Below the pieces are notes generated by a model. It did not search any database. It had not been told where the DNA came from and saw only the letters and a program-made list of their open reading frames with translations. Position numbers and translations under genes: made by a program. A DNA stretch of 24,253 nucleotides from Roseibacillus sp. (GTDB taxonomy: Bacteria > Verrucomicrobiota > Verrucomicrobiia > Verrucomicrobiales > Akkermansiaceae): NCBI GenBank assembly GCA_002729275.1, contig PBTP01000088.1:5456-29708 (forward strand), written 5' to 3'. Of the stretch, positions 248-19,702 are shown one piece after another; the first letter of the stretch is position 1, and each line of letters opens with the position of its first letter.

Positions 248-3200
248 ATGAGACCCATTAACCGCCTCGTGGCACCTGCGGTTGTCGTGGCTATCGTAGC
301 CACTGCCGCGCTTCCCTCGTTCTCCCAGTCTCTGGTTATCGCCGAGTTCATGGCCTCTAACCAGAGCAGCATCCAAGATGATGATGGCGACCACGAGGAC
401 TGGATCGAGGTTCTGAACCAGGGGACTAGGGTCGTTAATCTCGAGGGCTGGTTCCTCACTGATAATGCGGCGGACCTGAATAAATGGGCCTTTCCCGGAG
501 TTACTCTGGACCCCGGCGACCGACTGCTTGTCTTTGCCTCGGCAAAGGACCGTCAGGATCCGAATGGCACCCTGCACACAAACTTCAAGCTCGCAAGCGA
601 AGGAGAGTATCTCGCGATTGTCCGACCAGACGGGTTGACCGTGGAACATCACTTTTCCCCTTCCTTTCCTCTTCAGGCTCAGGATATCTCCTACGGACTT
701 CAGCAGGTAACCTCGGCAACCACCCTCATCGGCCCTGATGCAGCGGTCAGATACCAGATTCCCTCTGATGGAGAAGGTGATGTTCTTGAGGGGACCAATG
801 CGGATTCGTGGATCGCAACCGAGTTCCCTGACGGGCAATGGAGTGCCGGCGCGGCGGCAATCGGATACGCTACCGGCAGTCCTGATGCCTACGACCCTTT
901 GATTGAGACCGACGTCGAAGAGCAGATGTTCAGTAATGCTACTTCCATTTATATTCGCATACCCTTTAGCGCTCCTGACCCGTCCTCCATTTCAGCACTG
1001 AATCTTAAAATGAAGTGGGACGATGGGTTCATTGTATACCTCAATGGAAACCCCCTCCCGGTTGCAGAGGAAAACGCACCGTCAACCGACGGGCTGGACT
1101 ACCAGTCGAGCGCAACAGCCAGCCATAGCGACAGTCAGGCCGTGGTATATGACAACTATGATATTTCTCCTTCGCTCCTGTCTTTGGGGGAAAATGTCCT
1201 CTGTATCCACGGACTCAATGTTTCCACGGGGAGCTCGGACTTCCTGATTGTTCCAGAACTCGAGGCATTAAGCTCGGGAGGAGTCAGCACTCCTGCATAC
1301 TTCGCTTCCCCAAGTCCCAACGCCCCAAATAACAGCGGAAATTCCTCGGTTGGACCCCTGATCCGGAATGTCACCAGAAACATTCCCCCAATTACTCTCG
1401 CCACTGCTACCCCTCCCGTGGTGGCCGACTCAGCCACAGAATTTTCGGGTGCTCAGGGCGCTCTGGGCTGGTTTTACGGCTACCAGGAGGGAGCAGGACC
1501 ATACGACCCGGATACGAGCTTCATCCCCTTCGAGGGTGGCGAGCAAGGAGGGCCTTGGAACGGCACGACGCAGGAGTGGTCGGGGAATGCCTGGGAGGCC
1601 AATAACTCGGCTTCCTCCCCATGGACTTCTCTGGAGGCCACTAGTATGCACCCTAATGATTCTAACCCGGGACCCGAGCAGTATCCGATTCGAAGGTGGG
1701 TCTCTGACACCTCTGGTTTACACACCATCGCGGGAAGCTTTCATAACCTCAGTGCCTCTGGGGACGGAACGACAGGACGAGTTTTACACGAAGGAAACGA
1801 AATCTTTTCTCGCCTGACAGATGGAGGCCCAGTCGACTTCTCAATCATCAGGAACCTGAATCAGGGAGACCGTCTGGATTTCATCGTTGATAGCGGCCCC
1901 TTTGACCAGGACGGCTCAGACGGCACCGATCAGGCAGTCACCATCTACGAGGGCTCTTTTGGCACGACTAGTGTGGTCATCGAGGCGGAGGTCCTGCCCA
2001 CTATGCGGCCAATCGAAAGCGTCAGCCTGATATGGAGGGTCATGTACGATCAGGAAACCACCACTCCCATGCTGGATGACGGAAATGGGGGTGACGCCTT
2101 TGCTGGGGATGGAATCTACACCGCCACGATTTCAACAAATGATCTTAACCGGGGAGAAATGCTGCGCTGGAAAGTACTCGCTACCGATACGGATGGAGTC
2201 ACCGCCAAACAACCCCAGTTTCCTGACCCACGCGACTCGCCGGAATACTTTGGAACGATTGCCGCAGATGCCTCCGTGACAAATTCTAATCTTCCTATTT
2301 TTCACTGGTTCACTTCCAACCCTGGTGGAGCCAACACAACGAGTGGCGCACGTGGCTCAGTCTACTTCCTCGAGGAATTTTATGATAATATCCAAGCAGA
2401 TCGGCATGGCCAGTCCACGGGAGGATTCCCGAAGAAAAGCTACGATTTCGATTTCAACAAAAGCGACCGCTTTCTCTTTCAGGAGGGGGAAGGTCGGGTG
2501 AAGGACATCAACATGCTCACGAACTGGGCAGACAAGTCCAAGACCCGGAATACCCTCGGCTACGAAATGGTCCGTCGCTCGGGAGAGCCCGCACATTTCG
2601 CCTTTCCAGTCCGGATTCAGCAAAATGGATCATTCTTCAGCGTTGCAGACATGGTCGAAGATGGGGATGACCGATATCTTGACCGAGCGGGACTGGACCC
2701 TGAAGGCGCTCTCTACAAGATGTATAATCGGCTCGATTCCTCCAGCAGTGGAATAAACAAGAAAACCCGGAAAAATGAAAATAACCGTGATCTTCAAGCC
2801 CTCATAACCGGGCTGGGCCTCTCGGGAGAAGCCCGGCTTCTCTACGGCTATGACAATATCGATATCCCCGGCACTATCAACTACCTTGCAGCCCTCGACC
2901 TCACCAACAACCGAGACCATGGGCACAAGAATTACTACCTCTACCGGGATACTCTGGGCACTGGAGAGTGGCGTCCCCTAGTATGGGATATTGACCTCTG
3001 CCTGGGGCGTAATTGGGTCGGCGGACCAGCATACTTTGATGATACCTTTACAAATAACAACCTCAGGGCAGGAGCCTCAAATCGCTTGAAGACCTTTATC
3101 TTCAACGATGCCATCCTGAACCAGATGTACCTGCGTCGAGTAAGGACCCTGATGGACCAGCTGATTGGCCCTCCCTCTTCTCCCGTCAACTATCTCCCTG

Positions 3201-4720
3201 ACAGAGTCGATGAGCTGACTCAGCTCATCGACCCAACCAATAACAACGCCCAGAGAGGAAATGATGATGCCGACCTCGATTACAGGAAATGGGGTTCGTG
3301 GGGAAATCGCAATACCCTTCGTGAAGCAGCGGACCGAATCAAGGTTGAGCATATTCCCGAGCGACGCAGCCAGCTCTACGGCCTGAATGAGATCCCTTCC
3401 GGGCAGCCCGAGGCCGCGGTCATCAGATTCGGAACTGTTGACTACAACCCAGCGGCAAGAGGAGCCTCTCCCGATCAGAGTGGAGAATACTTTCTTCTTG
3501 TGAACCCAAACCGAACAGCGATCGACTGCTCGTATTGGGAGATTTCAGGGGGCGTCTCCTTTTCGCTCCCCGCCGGCACAGTCCTGCCGGCGCGGGGACG
3601 CCTTTATGTGGCCCGGGACGCCCGAGGATTTCGAGAACGAAGCATCAGCCCCAAAGCGGGTGAGAAACGCTATCTCATCAGCGGCTACGATGGTCAGCTC
3701 TCCGCCCGGGGAGAAACCCTTACGCTCACAAACGAAATGGGCGTAGTGATCGATAGCCTTTCCTACTCTGGAAACCCAACCCCCGGCCAAGACTTCCTAA
3801 GGATAACCGAAATCCTCTTTGCTCCTGCACCACCAACAGAAAGTGAACTCGAAATCGACTCTTCCCTTACCGCAGAAGACTTCGAATTCGTCGAGTTGAC
3901 AAATACAGGCTCCACTCCTCTGGATATAAGTGGAGCCAGTTTCGTGGAGGGAATCTCACTTTCCTTTCCACCACAGACCATCCTGGAAGCAGGTCAGCAC
4001 ATTCTGGTTGTGGCCAACCTCGCGGCCTTCAATTTACGATACGATGCAGGATTGCCTGTGGCAGGAGAATATACAGGCAAACTCAGTAACGACGGAGAGC
4101 AACTCCAGATTCTAGACATCATGGGAGAGAATATTCTCGAATTCAGCTACAACGATGCATGGTATGATGCCACCGACGAGGCTGGACATTCGCTTGTCGC
4201 CCGTAATCCGGCTACCACTCCGATTACCGACTTTGACGGGCCTGCCAATTGGGGTGTGAGCCTTGACCAGGGAGGAGACCCCGGCTCATCTCCTTCCGGG
4301 TTCGCCGTCACTTTCTCCTCATGGAAATACCAGAATTATCCCGAGGACGCTGTTTCTGATCCCCAGGTGACCGGGGCCTCTGTGGATCTTGATGCCGACA
4401 CTCTCAATACGGTTCTGGAGTATGGATTCGGTAGAAACCCTAATGCCCATGATATTGAGGAGAATTATCATCCTTCCTTGGTAGAAGCCGACGGTATTGA
4501 CTATCTGGCTCTCTCCCTTCGAAGGCAGAAGAACGCTCTTGATCTCTCCTACGAAGTCCAGTTTTCCCATGATCTGATAAGCTGGACCAACTCAGGGGAA
4601 CCTGTTGGCGCCCCTCGGGACAATGGTGACGGAACGGAAACTATCACCATCCGGGATCAGATCCCTGCTTCCGGAAACTCGACCCGTTACACCCGCGTCA
4701 GAATAACGATCGGACAATAG
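248..4720 (+). CDS. Secreted CotH-kinase-like / lamin-tail-domain protein (1490 aa)
   Basis: A signal peptide covers about residues 1-26 (hydrophobic VVVAIVATAALPSFSQS). A first lamin-tail domain spans about 28-135 (LVIAEFMASN, DWIEVLN, GWFLTD). A jelly-roll-like module at about 180-345 has WDDGFIVYLNG and ENVLCIHGLN. The central CotH-like region, about 680-1000, carries GFPKKSYDF and PLVWDIDLCLG near residue 914. Two further lamin-tail-like domains lie at about 1057-1178 and 1184-1322, and the C-terminal sandwich follows EYGFGRNP. CotH proteins have an atypical kinase fold and phosphorylate spore-coat proteins in Bacillus; activity and substrate here are unknown. The ATG at 248 is chosen because it places the signal peptide first; an AAGGA lies upstream at an unusually long spacing of about 17 bases. 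No membrane anchor or sorting signal is evident. Confidence 0.9.
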   Translation: MRPINRLVAPAVVVAIVATAALPSFSQSLVIAEFMASNQSSIQDDDGDHEDWIEVLNQGTRVVNLEGWFLTDNAADLNKWAFPGVTLDPGDRLLVFASAKDRQDPNGTLHTNFKLASEGEYLAIVRPDGLTVEHHFSPSFPLQAQDISYGLQQVTSATTLIGPDAAVRYQIPSDGEGDVLEGTNADSWIATEFPDGQWSAGAAAIGYATGSPDAYDPLIETDVEEQMFSNATSIYIRIPFSAPDPSSISALNLKMKWDDGFIVYLNGNPLPVAEENAPSTDGLDYQSSATASHSDSQAVVYDNYDISPSLLSLGENVLCIHGLNVSTGSSDFLIVPELEALSSGGVSTPAYFASPSPNAPNNSGNSSVGPLIRNVTRNIPPITLATATPPVVADSATEFSGAQGALGWFYGYQEGAGPYDPDTSFIPFEGGEQGGPWNGTTQEWSGNAWEANNSASSPWTSLEATSMHPNDSNPGPEQYPIRRWVSDTSGLHTIAGSFHNLSASGDGTTGRVLHEGNEIFSRLTDGGPVDFSIIRNLNQGDRLDFIVDSGPFDQDGSDGTDQAVTIYEGSFGTTSVVIEAEVLPTMRPIESVSLIWRVMYDQETTTPMLDDGNGGDAFAGDGIYTATISTNDLNRGEMLRWKVLATDTDGVTAKQPQFPDPRDSPEYFGTIAADASVTNSNLPIFHWFTSNPGGANTTSGARGSVYFLEEFYDNIQADRHGQSTGGFPKKSYDFDFNKSDRFLFQEGEGRVKDINMLTNWADKSKTRNTLGYEMVRRSGEPAHFAFPVRIQQNGSFFSVADMVEDGDDRYLDRAGLDPEGALYKMYNRLDSSSSGINKKTRKNENNRDLQALITGLGLSGEARLLYGYDNIDIPGTINYLAALDLTNNRDHGHKNYYLYRDTLGTGEWRPLVWDIDLCLGRNWVGGPAYFDDTFTNNNLRAGASNRLKTFIFNDAILNQMYLRRVRTLMDQLIGPPSSPVNYLPDRVDELTQLIDPTNNNAQRGNDDADLDYRKWGSWGNRNTLREAADRIKVEHIPERRSQLYGLNEIPSGQPEAAVIRFGTVDYNPAARGASPDQSGEYFLLVNPNRTAIDCSYWEISGGVSFSLPAGTVLPARGRLYVARDARGFRERSISPKAGEKRYLISGYDGQLSARGETLTLTNEMGVVIDSLSYSGNPTPGQDFLRITEILFAPAPPTESELEIDSSLTAEDFEFVELTNTGSTPLDISGASFVEGISLSFPPQTILEAGQHILVVANLAAFNLRYDAGLPVAGEYTGKLSNDGEQLQILDIMGENILEFSYNDAWYDATDEAGHSLVARNPATTPITDFDGPANWGVSLDQGGDPGSSPSGFAVTFSSWKYQNYPEDAVSDPQVTGASVDLDADTLNTVLEYGFGRNPNAHDIEENYHPSLVEADGIDYLALSLRRQKNALDLSYEVQFSHDLISWTNSGEPVGAPRDNGDGTETITIRDQIPASGNSTRYTRVRITIGQ

Positions 4721-4836: not shown

Positions 4837-7800
4837 ATGTTTTCTTCCTCTCGCTTGGCCGGTCTGCTCTGCCTGACCCTGCTGTCCACGGCCTGTCAGC
4901 AGAAGGAGGAGGAGACCGCACGCCCCCACCCAACTCAGAACGGGTTCCGGCAGGCCTCGGAAACAATCACCGCAGATCCAGATCCCACCCTTTCGGATTG
5001 GGAGACCGAGGTTTTTACCTCTGCAACCGGGCTCAAACTGAAAGAGATTAAGGACTTCCTCCGAGCTACAATCACAGATCCCCCGGCAGGGACGTGCCAG
5101 CCCCTGAGCGGATTCCCCATGACCTCTCTCCCTGTCGGTGGAGCCTTTCATGTCCAACGAGCCAGCAACACCGAGGGAGAGCCAATGGATCTTTCTGAGG
5201 CTCTACAGAGCCTCCGCAGTAAGTTCAGCAGCGACAAAGCCACAATGGCCGAAATCAAAGTCGTCAAAGTCGACCTCTCCGGAGAAAACGCAACCACTGC
5301 ACTCAATGTCCAGATTGCCGATTCCGGGCTGCAGATTAATGCCAGATGGATCGCCCAATGGACCAAGGATAACCCTCCTGCTCTTCTGGATCTAAGAGTA
5401 ACAAGCCACGAGGAGTGCCTTCGGGGCAGCGGAGGGACTTTGGTCGATTCCACAGGCGCGGTGCTTGCTCCCTTCGTGGAGAAAGCTCAGGTCGTCCATG
5501 GCATGGACCACTGGGTGGGCCGGATTGAAACTCTTCTAGGCATCGAAATTGGCGGCTGGCACGGGCTTGCTACCGCTGACGTGAATAATGACGGACTTGA
5601 TGATATTTACCTTTGCGATGGAGGCGGTCTCCCCAACCGGCTACTGGTGCAACAGCAGGATGGAACAGTCCTCGACCGGTCCCAGGAATCGGGCCTCGGA
5701 CTCCTCGACCACAGCTTTGGATCCCTTTTCGCTGACTTCGATAATGACGGGGATCAAGATGCCGCGATCGCACTGGCTTCAGGGGTCCTCATTCTTGAAA
5801 ATGATGGAACGGGAACTTTCTCTCCCGCAAACGCGAAAAGCTTTCCTTCTGCAGTACCATATTCTCTGGCAGCGGCAGACTATGATGAAGATGGAGATCT
5901 CGATCTCTTTGCCAGCTGTTACGTGCAACGAGCTGGAGCAAATCGCCACTCCTTTGTAGCAAGGCCCCTGCCCTACCATGATGCCACCAATGGAGGCCGC
6001 AACGAACTGCTGCGGAACGAGGGAAGCCTGCGCTTCCGTAACGTGACCAAGGAAGTGGGCCTGCTTCCCGGTAATAGCAAGTTCTCGTATTCCGCCAGCT
6101 GGGAGGACTACGATCAGGACGGCGATATGGACCTCTACGTCGCCAATGATTTCGGCGGAAATAACCTCTACCGTAATACGCTCCGGGAGTCTGGAAAGCC
6201 TGCCTTCACTGATGTGGCCGCCGAGGCCGGGGTGCGTGATATAGCGGCTGGCATGTCCGCCTGCTGGGGAGATTTTGACAACAATGGACTCGTGGATCTC
6301 TACGTCGGAAACATGTTCTCCTCGGCCGGCAATCGGATCGCTTTTCAGGACAAATTTAAGAGTGAGGGCAAGGCCGAAACCCGGGCGCTTTATCAGCGCC
6401 ACGCGAGGGGCAATTCCCTGTTCCAGAACCTTGGTCAGGGGCGATTCAGGGATGTCAGCGTTTCCTCCGGCACCACCATGGGTCGGTGGGCATGGAGTTC
6501 GCTCTTCGCGGACCTCGATAACAATGGCTGGGAGGACCTCCTCGTGACCAATGGGTTCATCACTCAGAGAGACCCTGATGACTTGTGAAGTTTCTACTGG
6601 CGGCAGGTCGTGTCGCAGGCACCAGAGACAAGCACTCCGGACGAGGGAACCGAGGGCTACCTTCAAGCTTTTGGCGATCTCGCTCAGCGTATTCGTGATG
6701 GGGCCTCCTTCAGCGGGAGGGAGCGGCATTGTGCCTTCCTGAATACCGGTCAAGGCGACTTCGCCGACATCTCAACACTTAGTGGATTTGGAATGCCCTC
6801 GGATGGAAGAGGTCTCGCAATTACGGACTGGGACCACGATGGCGATCTGGATCTATGGTTCTCTAACCGGTCTGCTCCCCGTCTACAATTCCTTCAAAAC
6901 AAGATCCCCCCGGAGAGTTCCCGCTGGATTTCTGTAAGACTGAAGGGCAACCCGGAAAGGAAATGTTCACGGGACGCTATTGGATCGCGGGTCGAACTAA
7001 TATTCTCTGATGCCACTCAGCGCCGGGTAAAAACCCTCTACGCAGGCAACGGCCTTATGAGCCAATCCAGCAAGTGGCTCCACTTTGGCCTTGGAGCCGC
7101 AGATCAGCGCCTCGTGGCCGCAAAGGTCCGCTGGGCAGGGGGAGCGGAGGAGGAGTTCAAAGGGCTGGAGGAGGGCAAACGCTGGATTCTCATGCAGGAG
7201 CGGGGCAAAGCGTTAGAGGCAAACAAGAGAGAGCCCATCACCCTTCCAGCTAAGGCAATCAAACTCCCCGTCGCAACGGATGTGGCTCGCATCCGGCTTT
7301 CGCAACCCCTCAAAATTCCCGAGCTCAGCTATCGGGATTTCTCGGGCGAGACCCAAAGCATTACTCAGCTGGCCTCAAGCACAGCCGTTCTCATCAATCT
7401 CTGGGCGAGTTGGTGCACCCCTTGCGCTTCCGAGCTGGAGGCATTCGAGAAAGCTCGTAGCCTGTTTGAATCCAAAGGCATCAGAGTTGTCGCCCTGAAC
7501 GTTGACCACCTCGACCCCGAGGAAGAGATTACTCCGAGGGGCGCAGCGCGGGCTATGGCGAAATTTGGCTTTCGAGGATCCGGGGGCATGGCAGATGAGA
7601 AAATTCTCTCTCTTCTTCAGCAATCGATTCTGGCAAGTGTTTATCGTCATCATCAGATGCCCGTCCCAATCAGCTTTCTAATCGACAGGGGTGGGTGGCT
7701 CAGCGCGATTTATAAAGGTCCAGTGGAAGTATCACGTATCCTGTCAGATCTTGAGAAACTTGGAAGAAGTCCTGAGGCGGCGCTCAAAGCCGCCGTTCCC

Positions 7801-8403
7801 TTTGAGGGAGTCTGGTCCAAAAAATTCTTCCCAGCTGATCCAGTAGCAATTTCGAGGGCTTATATGGAGGGAGACTATCTGGAAGAGGCCCGATCCTCCC
7901 TCCTCAGCTTTCTCGAGAAACACGAGGCCCCTCCCGGAAACCCGGGCATCCCAGCAGAGCAAAAACGCAATATGCAAATCGGAGCTGTTTACTTCCAATT
8001 TGGTGAAATTTTTCTCCGTGAGGACAGGGAAACGCGCGCCCGCTCCTCTTTTCTCAAAAGCCTGGATTACACACCAAGGCAACTGCCCGTCCTGAATAGA
8101 ATTTCTTGGCTCTTGGCCACCGCAGGCGACTCATCTGTAAGAAATGGTATAGAGGCTCTCCGCTATGCGAAGTTCATGATGGGGGCTCCAGGTGCTGCCG
8201 ATGACCCAGCTCTGCTATCTACTCTCGCAGCTGCACACGCCGCAGCGGACCAGTTCCCAGCAGCAATTCAGACAACCTTGAAAGTCATTAAAATCCTGGA
8301 GGCTGGTCAACGGCCAGACAAGCTGGAGGAGCAGCAGGGGCGCCTTAGGCTCTACCGTCAGGGTAAAACGCTCTCTCGGCCCTTGGGTCGGACTACTCCA
8401 TGA
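4837..8403 (+). CDS. Candidate selenoprotein: FG-GAP/ASPIC-UnbV (CRTAC1-like) lipoprotein with TlpA-like thioredoxin and TPR-like tail, Sec at in-frame TGA
   Basis: I read this as one 1188-residue protein with TGA at 6586-6588 decoded as Sec584. Conventional annotation would split it into 4837..6588 (or from TTG 4816) and 6610..8403; both are in the same frame with 21 non-stop bases between. The N-terminus has a lipoprotein-like signal (LLCLTLLSTAC). Calcium-type FG-GAP loops lie near 248, 300, 348, 424, 479 and 559, with another after the TGA at 664, so the propeller spans the TGA. ASPIC/UnbV follows at about 695-770. A TlpA-like thioredoxin at about 824-980 has CTPC (C860, C863) and a cis-proline-type PVPISFLID. 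Helical, TPR-like sequence fills about 1004-1170. The second half lacks an ATG and a clear ribosome site; GTG at 6610 is only an internal codon. Alternatives are a nonsense mutation or a sequencing error. Function is unknown; exported redox chemistry is plausible. Confidence 0.78.
6586..6629 (+). promoter_or_regulatory. Candidate bacterial SECIS element with its UGA codon
   Basis: UGA is at 6586-6588. Downstream, GCGGCA (6600-6605) pairs with UGUCGC (6611-6616), including one G-U pair, around loop GGUCG (6606-6610). A lower stem, GUUUCU (6590-6595) with AGAGAC (6624-6629), can extend it to about 40 bases; CUGG/CCAG (6597-6600 with 6622-6625) is a competing lower pairing. The apical GCAGGUC is identical to that of the E. 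coli fdhF SECIS as I remember it. The UGA-to-loop distance is 17 bases here and 18 in fdhF. The bulged U of fdhF is not evident. Folding was done by eye. Confidence 0.65.
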
Positions 8404-8466: not shown

Positions 8467-9747
8467 ATGGCTTTTCGTCAGGCGTGTCTCACTCTTCTCC
8501 ATTCTACAGCTCTCTGCATGACATCCAGTGCTGCTGAAAATTGGAACCAGTTCCGAGGCCCGGCCGAGGATGGACGAGCGGATAATGCCGGATTGCCTAC
8601 CGCTTGGGCTGAAGACCAGAATGTCGCTTGGAAAACCCCTCTGGAAGGCAAGGCCTGGTCTTCTCCCGTGGTCTGGGGTGACCGGGTCTGGGTCACAAAT
8701 GCCAACCCCGAGGGCACCAGGCTGTCGGTTCTCTGTATCGACAAATCCAACGGTAACGTTCTCTATGATAAGCTACTCTGGGAGGTGGCAGAGCCCCAGT
8801 TCTGTCACGCATTCAACTCTTATGCCTCACCGACCCCAGTGCTTGAAGATGGGTTCGTATATCTCACTTTTGGTTCTCCCTATACGGCCTGCCTCAAGGC
8901 CTCCGATGGTGAGGTCGTCTGGACCCGTACTGACTTCACCTGTGATCATTTCCGGGGCGCCGGCTCTTCTCCAATTCTCCATGGAGATTCTCTCATTCTC
9001 AACTTCGACGGCGCCGATCATCAATTTGTTGTAGCTCTCAACAAGTTGACAGGGAAGACCGTCTGGAAGACGCCGCGGAGCGTGGATTACCGGGATCTTG
9101 ACGCCGGTGGAAAACCCAAAAGAGGCGGCGACATGCGCAAGGCCTACGGTACTCCCATCATGGTCAAAACCGACGACGGAACTGCCGTGCTCGTGAGTGC
9201 AGGTGCGATGGCACTATATGGCTATAACCCAACTAATGGAAAAGAGCTCTGGCGGGTGGAGACCATAGGGACTCATTCCACTTCCTGCAGGCCAGTCACG
9301 GGTCTGGGCATGGTCTACACCACAATGGGCTTCAGTAAGGGCATTCTTCTCGCCGTCCGGCCTGACGGAAAAGGTCACGTGACCAAGAGTCATGTAGCCT
9401 GGCGTTATACCAAAGCCGCTCCAAAAAAGCCGTCCATCCTCATCAAAGACGACCTTCTTTTCATGATCGATGACGGTGGGGTCGCCGCTTGCCTCGAGGC
9501 CCGGACCGGCACCGAAATATGGAAAGAACGGATCGGGGGTAACTTTTCGGCCTCCCCCATCATGGCCGGCGGAATGATCTACCTGTTCGATGAAAATGGA
9601 AAGGGCACCGTTCTTGCCGCTGAGCGAGATTTCAAGGTAATCGCAAGCAACGAGCTAGAAGCTGGATGTATGGGATCTCCCGCGGTTTCAGGCGACATGC
9701 TCATCGTTAGAACCAAGAAAGCCCTCTATGGCCTGCGTAATCATTGA
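8467..9747 (+). CDS. Exported PQQ-type beta-propeller protein (426 aa)
   Basis: A signal peptide (about 1-22, ending near SSAAE) precedes a WNQFRGP opening typical of exported PQQ-like propellers. Repeated blades follow, each with a paired strand and a tryptophan near the end (AWSSPVVWGDRVWVT, GEVVWTRTD, GKTVWKTP, GKELWRVE, GTEIWKERIG). The family (PF13360/BamB-like fold) includes PQQ dehydrogenases and many proteins of unknown role; no PQQ-ligating or catalytic set is recognised, so an enzyme is not claimed. The ATG at 8467 has a clear AGGAGGA (8453-8459) 7 bases upstream. It lies 63 bases after the candidate selenoprotein gene, on the same strand, and could be co-transcribed with it. It shares its opening motif with the gene at 11582. 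Confidence 0.88.
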   Translation: MAFRQACLTLLHSTALCMTSSAAENWNQFRGPAEDGRADNAGLPTAWAEDQNVAWKTPLEGKAWSSPVVWGDRVWVTNANPEGTRLSVLCIDKSNGNVLYDKLLWEVAEPQFCHAFNSYASPTPVLEDGFVYLTFGSPYTACLKASDGEVVWTRTDFTCDHFRGAGSSPILHGDSLILNFDGADHQFVVALNKLTGKTVWKTPRSVDYRDLDAGGKPKRGGDMRKAYGTPIMVKTDDGTAVLVSAGAMALYGYNPTNGKELWRVETIGTHSTSCRPVTGLGMVYTTMGFSKGILLAVRPDGKGHVTKSHVAWRYTKAAPKKPSILIKDDLLFMIDDGGVAACLEARTGTEIWKERIGGNFSASPIMAGGMIYLFDENGKGTVLAAERDFKVIASNELEAGCMGSPAVSGDMLIVRTKKALYGLRNH

Positions 9748-9748
9748 G

Positions 9749-9775
9749 CGCTCTCGGTATTATTTTTCGAAAGCG
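9749..9775. terminator. Possible hairpin between convergent genes
   Basis: CGCTCTCG (9749-9756) faces CGAAAGCG (9768-9775) with one C-A mismatch and an AT-rich loop containing TATTTTT. It overlaps the 3' end of the minus-strand gene. Termination is a guess from position. Confidence 0.3.
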
Positions 9776-11283
9776 TAGAGATGATTCTGGGTCTGGACAA
9801 ACAGGGTCCCATTGGCAGCTACCAAGCTGGAATAAATCGGGCCTGAAAACTCGGCGATTCCTAGCTCTTCTAGTTTTCGGCCCTCTTTAAGGATGATGAC
9901 TTCCCCGTCTTCTGTCCCAATATAGATCCGCCCGTCTGCCACCAGAGTAGAACCCCAGATCCGGCTCAGCGTATCGTGAACCCACAGCGCCTTGCCAGAG
10001 AGGGCATCGACACAATGAATCTGACCGGTGAAATCAGCGATGTAAACGAGACCATCCTTTACTGAGGGAGTTGAGAGGGACCGGTTAATTTTCTTATAGG
10101 TCCAATCTGTCTTTCCGGTTTCCACATCTACACAACTGAGCATTCCCACTCCGTCTCCATTTTCCGGGTCCTGTCCGATCGTCACGAACACCTTCCCTTT
10201 GTGGAAGACCGGGGTTCCCACAATTTCGCTCGGCCCTCGGTATGACGGGTATTCCCGGGGCTTGCCGTCTTGATCAAGACGATACTCTGGCGCATTGGCA
10301 TCCACCCGCCAATACTCCCCCATGACAGAGCTGCTCCCCTCTAATTTCTTTCCTGTCGGATCAAAGGCGTGCAAGAAACCATCGCCTCCCCCAAAGAAGA
10401 TTGCAGGGCTACCACTACGCTCTCCAATACAGGGTGACGACCAATTGCAATGCATTGTCGCCTTGGAAATCCCAGCCTGCTCAACGCTCTCGAGCTCTCC
10501 AGTAGTTGCATTCAACATGATCAGAGCAGGTGCCTTCGGGGAAGGTATATGATCATGATCTTCGTTAATTCCATTCGAAGTTGTCGCGACGACCTTCCCT
10601 CCCACCAAGGCAACTGAACTACTGGTGATGTTATGGGGCACAACCCCAAGCTCCTTGATCATATCATAGGTCCATAGAATATCGGCATCAGTAGGCCCTG
10701 CCTTACCCCCCTTCTTCCCCGGTCCGACCATATATTGACCCTCCTCTTGAAAGCCCTGATTTCCATTAGAAAACCCCTTCAGGTCAAGACAGGCGACCTC
10801 GCCCCGGTTGGTCATCACATACCCACGGTCTCCTTCAATCAGAGTGGAAGAGCAAATTCCCAGGTATTCCCAGTCTACCTCATCCCCACCGGGAAGCTTG
10901 GGTGCAGTCAACTGCCATAGGAAAGCCCCATCCTTTTCGCGGAAGGCCATCACTACTCCACGATCGCCGACAACAGATGGATTTCTTGGCTTTTCGTTAT
11001 TCGTTCCCACAAGAACTAATCCACTCCCGACAGTCGGCGTGCCATAGGACTCTGACCCCAGGGCAACGACCCATTTGCAACCCTTCGCAGTCGAAATGTT
11101 AATCTCTCCTTCCCGATCTTCCAACTCTTCGCCTCCGGAAATTTCCAGCGGCAGCCCTTCCTCAAAGGAAACCATATTCTTGTCCGGGCTCCCCCCCCAT
11201 TGGGCCCACGGAGCCGCAGGACAATAGTTGGCACACAGGAGAAAAAATCCACCCGCTATAAATTTAACGTATCTCAAGGCCAT
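9760..11283 (-). CDS. Exported PQQ-type beta-propeller protein (507 aa)
   Basis: From ATG at 11283 the protein opens [16 protein letters not shown] and ends its signal peptide near [12 protein letters not shown] at 11319 would add 12 residues ahead of the signal peptide, so the ATG is preferred; neither has a strong ribosome site. Propeller blades are visible as [11 protein letters not shown], a short divergent middle, [28 protein letters not shown] and the closing [14 protein letters not shown]. The sequence [12 protein letters not shown] is the usual first-blade signature of this family. Substrate or partner is not visible. The gene converges on the plus-strand propeller gene with a 12-base gap and diverges from the one at 11582, so the three are not one operon although they are related. 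Confidence 0.87.
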
Positions 11284-11581
11284 GACTGGAGTCTGGATAA
11301 CTTCAAACGGACTTTGCACGCCTAAACCTGCAACGCGGTAAGAACCTTTCGCATTCTGGCCGGTTTTTTTATCCGCTGACCTTAAAAATATAGGCCCTAG
11401 ATATCTCTGAAGGAGCAGAACTACCCGGGAATAACCTCGATCCCATGCTGCCAGGGCCTCCTATTTATGCCCTCTCCGAAGCAGTGTTTGCCACCTCGCC
11501 ACAGGGGAGCAGAGGCTTATCCACTTAGCGGAGGCTGAAAATCTCCTTGGTTCCCACCCGGGGCACAGGGAAGATTCCAAG
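11284..11581. other. Intergenic region between divergent propeller genes
   Basis: These 298 bases separate the starts at 11283 (minus) and 11582 (plus), so promoters for both should lie here. There is an AT-rich patch at about 11364-11392 (TTTTTTT, TTAAAAATATAG). A 7-bp inverted repeat, AGGCCCT (11392-11398) and AGGGCCT (11453-11459), is separated by 54 bases. No gene or confident promoter was recognised. Confidence 0.4.
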
Positions 11582-13108
11582 GTGACCAGAATTTTGATCC
11601 TGACCGGCATCCTCGTGGCTCCCCTTGGATATGGTGGTGAAATCACGAAGAACACTTGGAATCAATTCCGAGGTCCGGGGGGCTCCGGAGTTATGGAGAA
11701 ATCTAAACCTCCAGTCATGATCCAGTCCGGCGACCTGGCATGGAAAACGGCTCTGCCTGCTGGCCTCTCTTCTCCCGTCATTTCCGGAAACCGTATATTT
11801 CTTACTGCTTTCGAAGAAGGCCGGCTCCTCACCATTGCCCTCGATCGTGAAAACGGCCGGGAGCTCTGGCGGCGAACAGCTCCTGAAAAGCCGCTCCAAA
11901 AGGTTCATAAGGCCAACACCCCGGCCTCCCCGTCTGCTCTCGTAGACAACGAAAATGTCTACGTCTATTTCGGGTCTTACGGTCTTATCGCCTACCGGCA
12001 CGACGGAACAGAAGTCTGGAAGAGGCCTCTGAAAACCTCAAAAAGTCTTTATGGAGCATCTACCTCCCCAATCGCCTACAAGAACCTTCTCATTCTTGTT
12101 ACGGATGATGATGCCAATCTTGAGAGCAGCAGAGTGAGTCGCTCCCGGGTTCTTGCATTAAGCCGAACTAACGGGGAACTGGTTTGGGAGACCGCACGGC
12201 CTTTCCTCCGAAGTGGATGGTCAACCCCTTCTATCTGGAGACATCAAGATGCTGATGAACTTGTGGTCCTTGGACATGGCCGGGTAGTTGGGTATGACCC
12301 GCTTACCGGCCAGGAAAAATGGTTCGCGAAAGGCTTCTCACGCGAAACAATCGCTGTCCCCGTCCAGGGAAGGGGCAGGGTCTATATTTCTTCTGCGCAA
12401 CTTGGTGGAGTCTCCGACGCTGAGATTGACCCCAAGCCCTTCTGGGAGTCCATGTTGAAGTTTGACAAGAATCAGGATGGCAAAGTTGGCCGCGACGAGA
12501 TCACCGAAAACTTTACATGGCCGCTGCGGCCTGAGCTTCCCCTGGGGCATCCGGGATGGGGCATTCCCCTGCCCTCTGACCCTGCGCGCAGGCGGGACCG
12601 TCAGCAGGGGATCTTCGGATGGGCAGACAAGAACCGCGACAATCTATGGACGGAAGAGGAGTTATCTGCCCATATCACGAATCGCCCGGGAAGGCCGATT
12701 CTCATGGCCATTACCCCGGGAGGGAATGGTGAACTCGGGAAAGAACATATCGCATGGGAACTCAATCGTAGTGTCCCTGAGATCCCCTCTCCTCTTTTCT
12801 ATCGAGACCAGATCTACATGGTCCGTAATGGGGGAACACTTGCCGCGGTTGACCCAGAGACAGGTAAACTCAGCTACCGTGGACGCCTTGGGGGTACGGG
12901 ACAATACAGCGCATCCCCGATTGCGGCCAATGGTCATCTCTACCTCCTTTCCGATCAGGGGACTCTCTCCGTGGTAAAAGCTGGCAGCAAGTTCGAGATG
13001 ACGCACCGCTTTCAGCTTCCCGAGTCCGCATCCGTATCCCCGGCACTTGATCATGATACGCTTTACATCCGGGGAATGGGCCACCTCTGGGCCTACCGGA
13101 GCCGATGA
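11582..13108 (+). CDS. Exported PQQ-type beta-propeller with embedded EF-hand pair (508 aa)
   Basis: The start is GTG at 11582, supported by AGGGAAG (11567-11573) at about 8 bases and by the signal peptide it creates (TRILILTGILVAPLGYGG). NTWNQFRGPGGSG matches the opening of the gene at 8467. Blades include GRELWRRTAP, GTEVWKRPL, GELVWETARP and GQEKWFAKG. Between blades, about residues 294-362, two EF-hand-type loops occur: FDKNQDGKVGRDE from 294 and ADKNRDNLWTEEE from 348. The first has the canonical acidic spacing; the second has N and W at less usual positions. Calcium binding in the periplasm or outside is therefore plausible. Propeller blades resume after the insert (GKLSYRGRLGG, HLWAYRSR). 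Catalytic role is unknown. Confidence 0.87.
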   Translation: MTRILILTGILVAPLGYGGEITKNTWNQFRGPGGSGVMEKSKPPVMIQSGDLAWKTALPAGLSSPVISGNRIFLTAFEEGRLLTIALDRENGRELWRRTAPEKPLQKVHKANTPASPSALVDNENVYVYFGSYGLIAYRHDGTEVWKRPLKTSKSLYGASTSPIAYKNLLILVTDDDANLESSRVSRSRVLALSRTNGELVWETARPFLRSGWSTPSIWRHQDADELVVLGHGRVVGYDPLTGQEKWFAKGFSRETIAVPVQGRGRVYISSAQLGGVSDAEIDPKPFWESMLKFDKNQDGKVGRDEITENFTWPLRPELPLGHPGWGIPLPSDPARRRDRQQGIFGWADKNRDNLWTEEELSAHITNRPGRPILMAITPGGNGELGKEHIAWELNRSVPEIPSPLFYRDQIYMVRNGGTLAAVDPETGKLSYRGRLGGTGQYSASPIAANGHLYLLSDQGTLSVVKAGSKFEMTHRFQLPESASVSPALDHDTLYIRGMGHLWAYRSR

Positions 13109-17263: not shown

Positions 17264-19702
17264 TTACTCAGAGAAAATCCATGGCCGGGCCTGCTTGATG
17301 CTTAGCTTACCTTCCCTTGTGATCTTGAACTCTAATTCCATGGCAAAGTCCTTGGCCTCGTATGAGTGCCCGTAGAGCTTTGCAAAACGGTTATGAATGA
17401 TTCCGAGCCCCTCACGGAGTTGCTCCAGATGCTCCGCACTGAGAATGAGCCCATCCTTGGTGTGATTGGAGCGACGCATTACCTTGGTCTTTCCCGAATC
17501 AAACCAATCGAGCAGTAACTCCTCTGGAATAGAATCCTCCTCTGGATTTGTCACGAGGTCCTCTCCTACCTGGGTATTCAGATAGTAGGTTCCCTCAGTG
17601 CGGTAGAGGATGTCCGTTGTAACGGCGACTCCGTTGGCCTCTTCCTCATCATAATTCGGGTGAATCAAAACTCCCATGGCGGTAAGCATGTGATCAATCC
17701 GATAGAATTGCCTCTCCTGCACGGCTCGGAAATTCCACAGGCTGGCAAAGACCTGCTTAATGGAATTCGACAGATGTCCCTCATCAACCCGATGTGTACA
17801 GGAATCATAGAGTCCCGCCCCACTAAACCCGGGCAGGTCCTCGTTATTCGTGCTCGATCGACAACGCAAAGACGTCCCGTCCGGGAATGAGCCATGGATT
17901 TTGGCCAGGCTTTCTCGGAGATCATCAGGGAAATCTCCATCCCGAATCAATCTCCGGAAATCGCCCAACGCCTTCCGAAGGGCCTCCGTATCGCCAGCCT
18001 GTTCCTGCTCTGAAAAAAGCTCCGCTGCCTTTTCATAGAATCCATTGTGATTCATGAAAGTGTGATAAAATTGGAACGGCACTGCAAAGCCTCTGGGAAC
18101 CACTCCTTCCGGGAGATCGAAGGAGCTCATTGCCGCTAGATTCGCGGCTTTCACCCCAACACTTTTCCAATCCTCAAAACCAATATCGTCAAGCGCGCGA
18201 ATTTCAGTCACCTCCAGATCCCGCGACGGCTTCTGCGGCTTTGCGGGCCGGAGTTTCGCAAAATGAGCCTCCACCTCACCATCCTTGGCCTCGCGGAGAG
18301 TGAACCCTTCGGCATCGACCTTATAGTAGACGTACTTTCCTACCAGTGAACTCACTTCCTTCATTTGAGCTGCCTCTGCGATGAACGCATTTGGCACCTT
18401 GTCCTGGATCGCACGCAAATTGACATGCGAGAGCGGGGTCTGACGAACCTCCGTGATTATTCCCGCACTGCGAGGCATCTCATTCGGAAGGGATTTGTAG
18501 AGAACAATTTCGCGGGGACGTGGATACTCATCAAGCTCCATGATCCTAAGACGCCCAAAACTTTCTCCCTGGTTGAGGGGAAGGTAGTCGATATCACCAA
18601 ACAGGTCCTCGTCCAGATAGACTCGGAATGGTGCGTCCTCATAGAGTTCTTTTTCCTCCCGATAGCGGATCAGCGCAGCAGGCATCGGGTAGTATCCCAG
18701 CCTGCCTTTCAGCTCGGCACTCTTCGTGATGAGAAGCTCGTATGCCTTCCTGATAGTCTCAAAGGGGTAGCGGTCATTGGGGTTGAACTCAAAAGTGTAG
18801 AGACCCCTTTCCCCGTTTGAACCCTTCAACCTTGGGCGATAAACGAGCACTCCCCTCATTTGCGCTCCTTCGCCGGGACGAGCCCGTGGAATTCCTACCG
18901 CCGACATGAATCTCATATGGGCCCGATGCGTCTTGGTATTAATGAAATAGAGTTCCGGTTTTTCTCCATCAGCTCCTTCAATCTGAAATTTAACAAACTG
19001 GTTTCCTGCAAGGTGGGTATCGATCATCACCTCCTCTCCCTGGTAGCTGAGTGTTTCAAACGCTTTGCGGTCCGGGATGGTTGCTGCCCCGTCTTCTATC
19101 TCGACCTCATCCGGAGACTTTCGGTCCACGTTATCCGGCTGCGGACCACGCCCCCCGGGACCACGCCCCCCGGGACCACGCCCTCCAGGACCACGCCCTC
19201 CGCGCGGAGGAGCCATCTCTCTCATCTCAATGCGCCCATCCCCGTTTGTATCCAGTTTAGTCAGGGCTCCGGAGGACTTCTCCTGCTCTGCGGCAGAGAT
19301 CTTGCCATCCCCATCCTCGTCGAGAGCCGACATCAGCGGAATACGCATCAGGAATCCAGCGGCTCCCGGACCGCCTCCTCCGCGCGGATCCCGACCCTCG
19401 GGTGGGGGCGGCAGGATTTCTTCACCTTCGAGAATCTTGTCCTTATTCTTATCAAGGGTTTTCAGCTTGGCCGGCGCCCCTTTCAATTCTTCCCCGGTGA
19501 TGACGAGGTCCCCATCGCTGTCCAGAGCTTGCACTATTGGAAGCCTCCGGAGGAATTCCTCTGGACCTCGGCGGGGCCCGCGCTCCCCTCTAGGTTCATT
19601 ACCCGGACCATTCCCCCCAATGTTAGGAGGATTTTCCTGCGCTAGAAGCTCAGGGGACAGGAAACAAAGGGATAGGAAGAAAAGAAGAAGGGCAAGATTC
19701 AT
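17264..19702 (-). CDS. Exported PEP/pyruvate-binding (PPDK/glucan water dikinase-like) protein with EF-hands (812 aa)
   Basis: The signal peptide is about 1-22 (LALLLFFLSLCFLSPELLAQ). Four EF-hand-type loops follow at 61-72, 84-95, 128-139 and 151-162 (for example DEDGDGKISAAE and DTNGDGRIEMRE), then a glycine/arginine repeat (167-188). A middle domain of unknown function leads to TPLSHVNLRA with H426, which resembles the swivelling phosphohistidine site of glucan water dikinase (LSHVSVRARN). Residues about 510-812 are a PPDK_N-type ATP-grasp domain: VGVKAANLAAM, a RCRSSTNNEDLPGFSGAG segment near 612-630, and the closing GKLSIKQARPW. The histidine-then-ATP-domain order is as in glucan water dikinase, not PEP synthase. 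An exported ATP-dependent enzyme is odd, since no ATP pool is expected outside; the reaction is not assigned. Confidence 0.87.
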   Translation of the reverse strand: MNLALLLFFLSLCFLSPELLAQENPPNIGGNGPGNEPRGERGPRRGPEEFLRRLPIVQALDSDGDLVITGEELKGAPAKLKTLDKNKDKILEGEEILPPPPEGRDPRGGGGPGAAGFLMRIPLMSALDEDGDGKISAAEQEKSSGALTKLDTNGDGRIEMREMAPPRGGRGPGGRGPGGRGPGGRGPQPDNVDRKSPDEVEIEDGAATIPDRKAFETLSYQGEEVMIDTHLAGNQFVKFQIEGADGEKPELYFINTKTHRAHMRFMSAVGIPRARPGEGAQMRGVLVYRPRLKGSNGERGLYTFEFNPNDRYPFETIRKAYELLITKSAELKGRLGYYPMPAALIRYREEKELYEDAPFRVYLDEDLFGDIDYLPLNQGESFGRLRIMELDEYPRPREIVLYKSLPNEMPRSAGIITEVRQTPLSHVNLRAIQDKVPNAFIAEAAQMKEVSSLVGKYVYYKVDAEGFTLREAKDGEVEAHFAKLRPAKPQKPSRDLEVTEIRALDDIGFEDWKSVGVKAANLAAMSSFDLPEGVVPRGFAVPFQFYHTFMNHNGFYEKAAELFSEQEQAGDTEALRKALGDFRRLIRDGDFPDDLRESLAKIHGSFPDGTSLRCRSSTNNEDLPGFSGAGLYDSCTHRVDEGHLSNSIKQVFASLWNFRAVQERQFYRIDHMLTAMGVLIHPNYDEEEANGVAVTTDILYRTEGTYYLNTQVGEDLVTNPEEDSIPEELLLDWFDSGKTKVMRRSNHTKDGLILSAEHLEQLREGLGIIHNRFAKLYGHSYEAKDFAMELEFKITREGKLSIKQARPWIFSE
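19143..19202 (-). repeat. Four tandem 15-bp units encoding GGRGP-type repeats
   Basis: On the plus strand the unit GGACCACGCCCCCCG occurs at 19143 and 19158, and variants GGACCACGCCCTCCA/G at 19173 and 19188. They lie in frame in the dikinase-like gene and code for the glycine/arginine linker between EF-hands and enzyme. In-frame units of this sort can change in number by slippage. Confidence 0.9.

Follow-up and report, generated by a model that had tools for sequence, protein, structure and literature searches.

The SECIS of E. coli fdhF has a GGUC apical loop, and the usual route by which a protein comes to carry selenocysteine (Sec) is from Cys. A model of the bacterial element (bSECIS) has been published with a loop of 3-9 nt, a stem of 4-16 bp, G in the first two loop positions, a spacing of 16-37 nt and a minimum free energy (MFE) of -7.5 kcal/mol or lower, as given in the part of the source available to us (PMC13188914). 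The same source names UGC-containing TlpA-family and Prx-like selenoproteins. Judged by the names, domains and motifs that it lists, the available part of its 2026 catalogue, which spans 119 prokaryotic selenoprotein families, includes no FG-GAP, ASPIC or propeller protein (PMC13188914). The gene described here, which lies in a window of 24,253 nt (the whole stretch of Roseibacillus DNA that was analysed), appears to extend the known mechanism to a protein of that kind.

From sequence comparison, not experiment, we hold with high confidence that this gene encodes a selenoprotein in which UGA 6586-6588 is read as Sec through SelB and a downstream hairpin (Table 1). The initial annotation had described a frame interrupted by a single TGA, and translation of the window bears this out, with 583 residues preceding the UGA and Sec584 in the context DDL-U-SFYWRQVV. 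It had also claimed that no ribosome site for a second gene follows; the only in-frame starts up to 240 nt after the TGA are GTG 6610 and ATG 6793, and no Shine-Dalgarno-like sequence was seen by eye for either. To judge by the sequences, the pairing of TGA and hairpin in this gene is far more than chance, because three paralogs in the same genome share both and, in a wider scan, the TGA falls in an open frame at 79 of 80 listed loci. Selenocysteine insertion at this UGA is very likely, and the earlier proposal that residue 584 is Sec is backed by selA, selB and selD in the assembly, by the TGA in at least 84 copies and by a hairpin with compensatory changes.

Table 1. Features of the predicted selenoprotein gene and its upstream neighbour (positions within the window).
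Feature	Position	Strand	Details
Upstream neighbour, 1490-aa LTD / CotH-kinase protein	248..4720	+	Pfam; ends 116 bp before the ATG of the predicted selenoprotein gene
Predicted selenoprotein gene	4837..8403	+	frame with one TGA; product of 1188 residues; terminal stop TGA 8401-8403
FG-GAP / CRTAC1-like propeller	5434..6906	+	about residues 200-690; encloses the predicted Sec helix 584-594
In-frame UGA, very likely read as selenocysteine residue 584	6586..6588	+	TGA kept in at least 84 copies
bSECIS-like hairpin	6600..6616	+	stem GCGGCA 6600-6605 with TGTCGC 6611-6616; loop GGTCG 6606-6610
ASPIC/UnbV domain	6976..7182	+	residues 714-782; PF07593, 46.5 bits
ResA/TlpA-like thioredoxin domain	7312..7515	+	Pfam stretch 826-893; PF00578/PF08534; ResA 1st9 TM-score 0.87 over target
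CTPC motif (Cys860, Cys863) within the thioredoxin domain	7414..7425	+	translation
C-terminal helical (TPR-like) region	7951..8358	+	helices 1039-1174 in model; TPR chains match family profile

The hairpin that had been read by eye, with a stem of GCGGCA/UGUCGC and a GGUCG loop 17 nt after the UGA, is confirmed on the window sequence. Its 5-nt loop starting GG, its stem of 6 bp, its UGA-to-loop gap of 17 nt and its energy of -8.7 kcal/mol all fall within the bSECIS model as far as the source gives it (PMC13188914). The energy belongs to the 21-nt core alone, which only 1 of 200 shuffles equalled; the fold of the 50-nt stretch is ordinary (z -0.53, 52 of 200 shuffles as good). The fold check suggested earlier thus supports the core and leaves the longer stretch unremarkable, so that folding energy alone proves little, and an Rfam search of the window gave no match at E up to 1. 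Comparison between copies is more telling. Over the 74 copies that are distinct as 36-mers, 428 of 444 stem cells are paired (mean of 2000 shuffles 415.7, maximum 422); all six pairs are intact in 64 and at least one is broken in 10, counted in the standard register. For L095 and L101, both scored as broken, the sequence suggests that the stem could form around a GGU triloop if the register is shifted. Compensatory changes occur: GU, AU, GC, UG and CG are all seen at one pair, and both CG and AU at another. Every stem cell is paired in 16 diverse copies, whose covariation score was reached by no shuffle, although these were picked by hand for diversity from the 84 copies, which favours variation, and the full count is that of the 74. 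The possible lower stem of the initial annotation was not upheld, the downward extension being unconserved (pair 13-31 in 32% and pair 12-32 in 55% of the 74 distinct copies).

At synonymous sites, the codons that flank the UGA and those of the hairpin hardly vary. Relative synonymous entropy is 0.22-0.49 at codons -1, +1 and +5 to +8 in 67 Sec copies of <90% identity (the 84 copies less 13 with short flanks and 4 of the remaining 71 that are near-copies), against a median of 0.96 for a background of 84 conserved columns that excludes codons +1 to +9; this background takes in the UGA column and codon -1, and its next lowest column is Ser at +52 (0.53).

The Roseibacillus assembly (G000; 3.67 Mb, 143 contigs, 89.7% complete) holds three more long homologs, found by protein search, that are 41-43% identical and have one in-frame TGA each. 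All four paralogs have the TGA at the same codon of [DG]DL-U-SF[FY]WRQVVS (DNA TTGTGAAGTTTYTWCTGGCGRCAGGTCGTGTCGC), and the DNA after it is nearly identical. The selenocysteine claim had been said to depend on sel genes in the same genome. Matches over cut-off were obtained for selA (504 and 498.5 bits), for selD (364.9 bits) and for selB (261.7 bits), whose 660-aa frame includes the SelB winged helices; a search for selC in this MAG, which is 89.7% complete, found none. The selD gene (L034 1480-2529, contig C93) has an in-frame TGA of its own in SSCAG-U-ASK, so the selenophosphate synthetase here is itself a probable selenoprotein. The two selA stretches (L172 1-3251, L173 3650-6900), both close to contig ends and one with scattered N, share 87.9% identity over 3258 bp, a sign that the assembly may be a mixture of related strains.

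A pattern scan of about 85,000 species genomes returned at least 109 stretches and at least 80 loci, with about 0.9 chance matches expected. Within the DNA retrieved, the reading frame around the TGA is open in both directions at 79 of the 80 listed loci; in four of these (L076, L097, L102, L116) the DNA ends with fewer than 30 codons on one side. The remaining locus, L052, was dropped as a false match, and no selA was found in its genome. By record titles, which cover 76 of the 79 loci, the hosts are Verrucomicrobiota (41), Planctomycetota (20), Acidobacteriota (14) and Pseudomonadota (1, a MAG). The count of at least 84 TGA copies was obtained with a pattern that itself required TGA. A search of 387 genomes of the phylum in which this codon was left free gave six matches, from two genomes, and every one has TGA there; the search demanded the motif's exact codons and did not accept T as the last base, so it misses some copies, and since all its matches are TGA it provided no non-Sec control for the hairpin.

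In an order-wide sample of 141 genomes, 13 have the TGA pattern (the Roseibacillus genome included), with 43 copies and up to six per genome. All 13 have a selA match (E <= 0.001), 11 of them over cut-off, and G124 and G055 have selA only as fragments at contig ends; over the whole sample 40 genomes match and 38 pass the cut-off. The association between UGA pattern and selA has p of about 1.5e-8 by genome and 1e-4 by genus, with kinship not corrected for. Among 37 UGA-bearing genomes reached through picked loci (38 of the 80, hand-chosen; the selA positions in G519 and G520 coincide with those in G027 and G130 of the order-wide sample), selA is over cut-off in 30 and absent over cut-off in 7. 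Outside the Roseibacillus MAG, a selC over the Rfam cut-off was found in 10 of 13 UGA-bearing genomes and, in a second set of nine chosen by hand, in 6 (16 of 22 in total), and ARAGORN called tRNA-SeC with anticodon tca in 5 of the 5 candidates given. The Rfam cut-off is not fully specific, as 5 of 14 control genomes also pass it. No selC over this cut-off was found in the three close relatives (G516, G521, G522) that complete the second set; selA is present in G000 and G516, the two of these genomes searched for it, and the selC of these four genomes may be diverged or unassembled.

The Sec column looks different among relatives outside the Sec set. In the best 120 of 7782 database matches, a sample biased toward the closest relatives of the Sec protein, it holds D 25, L 19, S 18, E 13, C 11, A 9, N 5, G 4, H 4, R 2, Y 2, Q 2 and a gap in 6. 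The Leu rows, with one exception, come from a distant group whose motif differs. A mix of this kind is unusual for a catalytic Sec, and the expectation that homologs would show Cys or further UGA codons at DDL-x-SFYWRQVV is borne out only in part, by Cys in 11 of the 114 scored homologs and UGA in at least 84 copies, while the other 103 have neither Cys nor Sec. Five of the six gaps (P0065, P0079, P0087, P0092, P0101) are predicted proteins that stop immediately before the Sec column, an indication that annotation truncates some members of the family. Around the column, 80 rows, of which 54 come from database matches, show almost no variation at W588, R589 and V591. On a FastTree phylogeny of 172 rows, which left out 19 distant Leu rows, Sec versus non-Sec needs 18 changes, 9 of them forced by starred branches. 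With at least nine forced changes and Sec copies that do not form one clade, Sec has been gained and/or lost repeatedly, and the tree cannot tell which.

The window protein comprises a probable lipoprotein signal, suggested by its N-terminal letters, followed by an N-terminal domain, an FG-GAP propeller, ASPIC/UnbV, a ResA/TlpA-like thioredoxin domain and TPR. Pfam matches to FG-GAP_3, UnbV_ASPIC, AhpC-TSA and Redoxin lie on both sides of the UGA, and FG-GAP family membership is indicated by PF13517 (136.5 bits), by PF07593 and by the fold match. The AlphaFold2 model (pLDDT 91.9, pTM 0.91; Sec entered as Cys) combines a CRTAC1-like propeller, a ResA-like thioredoxin and TPR; among the fold matches listed CRTAC1 comes top (Foldseek and VIA) and ResA next (Foldseek). 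A thioredoxin fold with its CxxC (CTPC) is present and the ResA/TlpA assignment holds at domain level, the NCBIfam TlpA and ResA whole-protein models matching far under their cut-offs. In the model Sec584 is placed at the start of a helix. Helix starts are a common place for reactive thiols.

The initial annotation had Sec584 possibly working with the CTPC thioredoxin of the same chain. In favour of this, the CxxC letter pattern occurs in 53 of 61 scorable Sec copies (absent in 8; a further 10 of 71 were too short) versus 22 of 96 non-Sec copies, Leu and gap rows other than P0064 being left out of the association test, but the association is not significant in a phylogeny-aware test (median p 0.125). 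Cys632 is Cys in 50 of 82 Sec/Cys rows versus 11 of 85 others; a partner role for it is not claimed, because the phylogeny-aware test was again not significant (median p 0.375).

The genomic neighbours suggest a surface or exported setting and point to no substrate. ORFs clustering by BLAST with the LTD/CotH-kinase neighbour occur in 21 of 83 stretches, and ORFs assigned by BLAST cluster to other FG-GAP proteins in 15 of 83. In the window, three PQQ_2/BamB-like propeller proteins adjoin the predicted selenoprotein gene (8467-9747 +, 9760-11319 -, 11582-13108 +). Further along (17264-19702) lies an 812-aa protein whose odd architecture combines EF-hands and PPDK_N with a weak glucan-water-dikinase-like phosphohistidine match.

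Several other explanations of the UGA deserve consideration. If pseudogene decay or a base-calling error had made the TGA, the ambiguous bases on other contigs and the composite look of the assembly would fit; the window itself is without N, however, and the same TGA with synonymous constraint around it recurs in at least 84 copies, comparative data that refute this account and leave it a negligible probability. A genome-wide reassignment of UGA to an amino acid is more improbable still and is refuted by normal TGA stops: TGA ends 4 of 11 window genes checked, the predicted selenoprotein gene among them, and each of the four paralogs has only one stop, a TGA, inside its match. The UGA might instead be a real stop, or a leaky one read by a near-cognate amino acid, the main product then being a 583-residue propeller fragment and the hairpin a selenium-independent readthrough or regulatory element. 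The failure to find selC in this MAG, the five predicted proteins that end at the UGA and the lack of Cys or Sec in most listed non-Sec homologs would agree with this. We nevertheless consider it very unlikely given the selA matches throughout the UGA-bearing genomes of the order and in most of those reached by loci, a loop, stem and spacing that fit the bSECIS model in the available part of its source (PMC13188914), and the conservation as protein of the half downstream of the UGA.

It is also conceivable that Sec is inserted without a catalytic part, as a tolerated residue, as selenium storage or as selenium-dependent control of full-length synthesis, and the chemical freedom of the column in listed non-Sec homologs and the scattering of Sec copies over the tree would suit such a role. 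Maintenance of UGA and hairpin across several phyla, the excess of CxxC among Sec copies (with the phylogenetic caveat above) and the modelled helix position speak against it, and we regard it as rather unlikely. In the selenoprotein explanation that we prefer, ribosomes would translate 583 residues and meet the UGA, where SelB on the GGUCG-loop hairpin would bring Sec-tRNA(Sec), and the 1188-residue chain would therefore be completed. The product, probably exported and membrane-anchored, would be a CRTAC1-like FG-GAP propeller with Sec584 at a helix start, joined to a ResA/TlpA-like domain with CTPC and a TPR tail. The most likely role of Sec584, to which we give about an even chance, is that of a redox centre in an extracytoplasmic enzyme, reduced by the CxxC of the same chain. 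A wider and more doubtful reading, offered tentatively, would see multi-copy exported selenoenzymes in PVC bacteria and Acidobacteriota in which a helix Sec in a CRTAC1-type propeller is recharged by the in-chain ResA-like domain, with the SECIS built from a conserved peptide that already existed (WRQVV), so that Sec, contrary to the usual route, could appear where no catalytic Cys had ever been.

Apparently, the FG-GAP/ASPIC/thioredoxin selenoproteins constitute a new family within a known mechanism, one that is large, spans several phyla and is uncatalogued. The earlier statement that no selenoprotein has been described in the FG-GAP/ASPIC family stands for the catalogue as far as available, for NCBIfam and for the literature looked through: no model of NCBIfam release 20.0 was over cut-off for the three paralogs scanned, and the publications yielded none, while the supplementary candidates of a planctomycete study may include one (PMC4807772). 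The family adds a seemingly undescribed and common group of selenoproteins, mostly from Verrucomicrobiota, Planctomycetota and Acidobacteriota, and a case in which Sec occupies a column where most listed relatives lack Cys. At least some of its genes are represented in public protein sets by a product truncated at the UGA (5 of the best 120 matches), and a strict DNA signature is now available for finding members.

Compared with the E. coli fdhF SECIS, the element shares the GGUC apical loop and a similar UGA-to-loop distance, whereas the host protein differs and the downward stem extension is not conserved. Relative to CRTAC1 and other ASPIC-UnbV FG-GAP proteins (murine CRTAC1, PDB 9etn), the window protein adds the predicted Sec helix, a C-terminal thioredoxin domain and TPR. 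It resembles ResA/TlpA oxidoreductases in a thioredoxin domain with CTPC that superposes well on ResA, but here that fold is one domain of a long chain and the Sec would lie outside it. With the TlpA-family and Prx-like selenoproteins, as presented in the available part of the source, it has in common that both are bacterial selenoproteins with a thioredoxin-like fold (PMC13188914). The UGC and UxxC names of those proteins suggest a Sec in the thioredoxin active site, whereas the Sec predicted here is located in the propeller, 276 residues before the first Cys of the CTPC motif.
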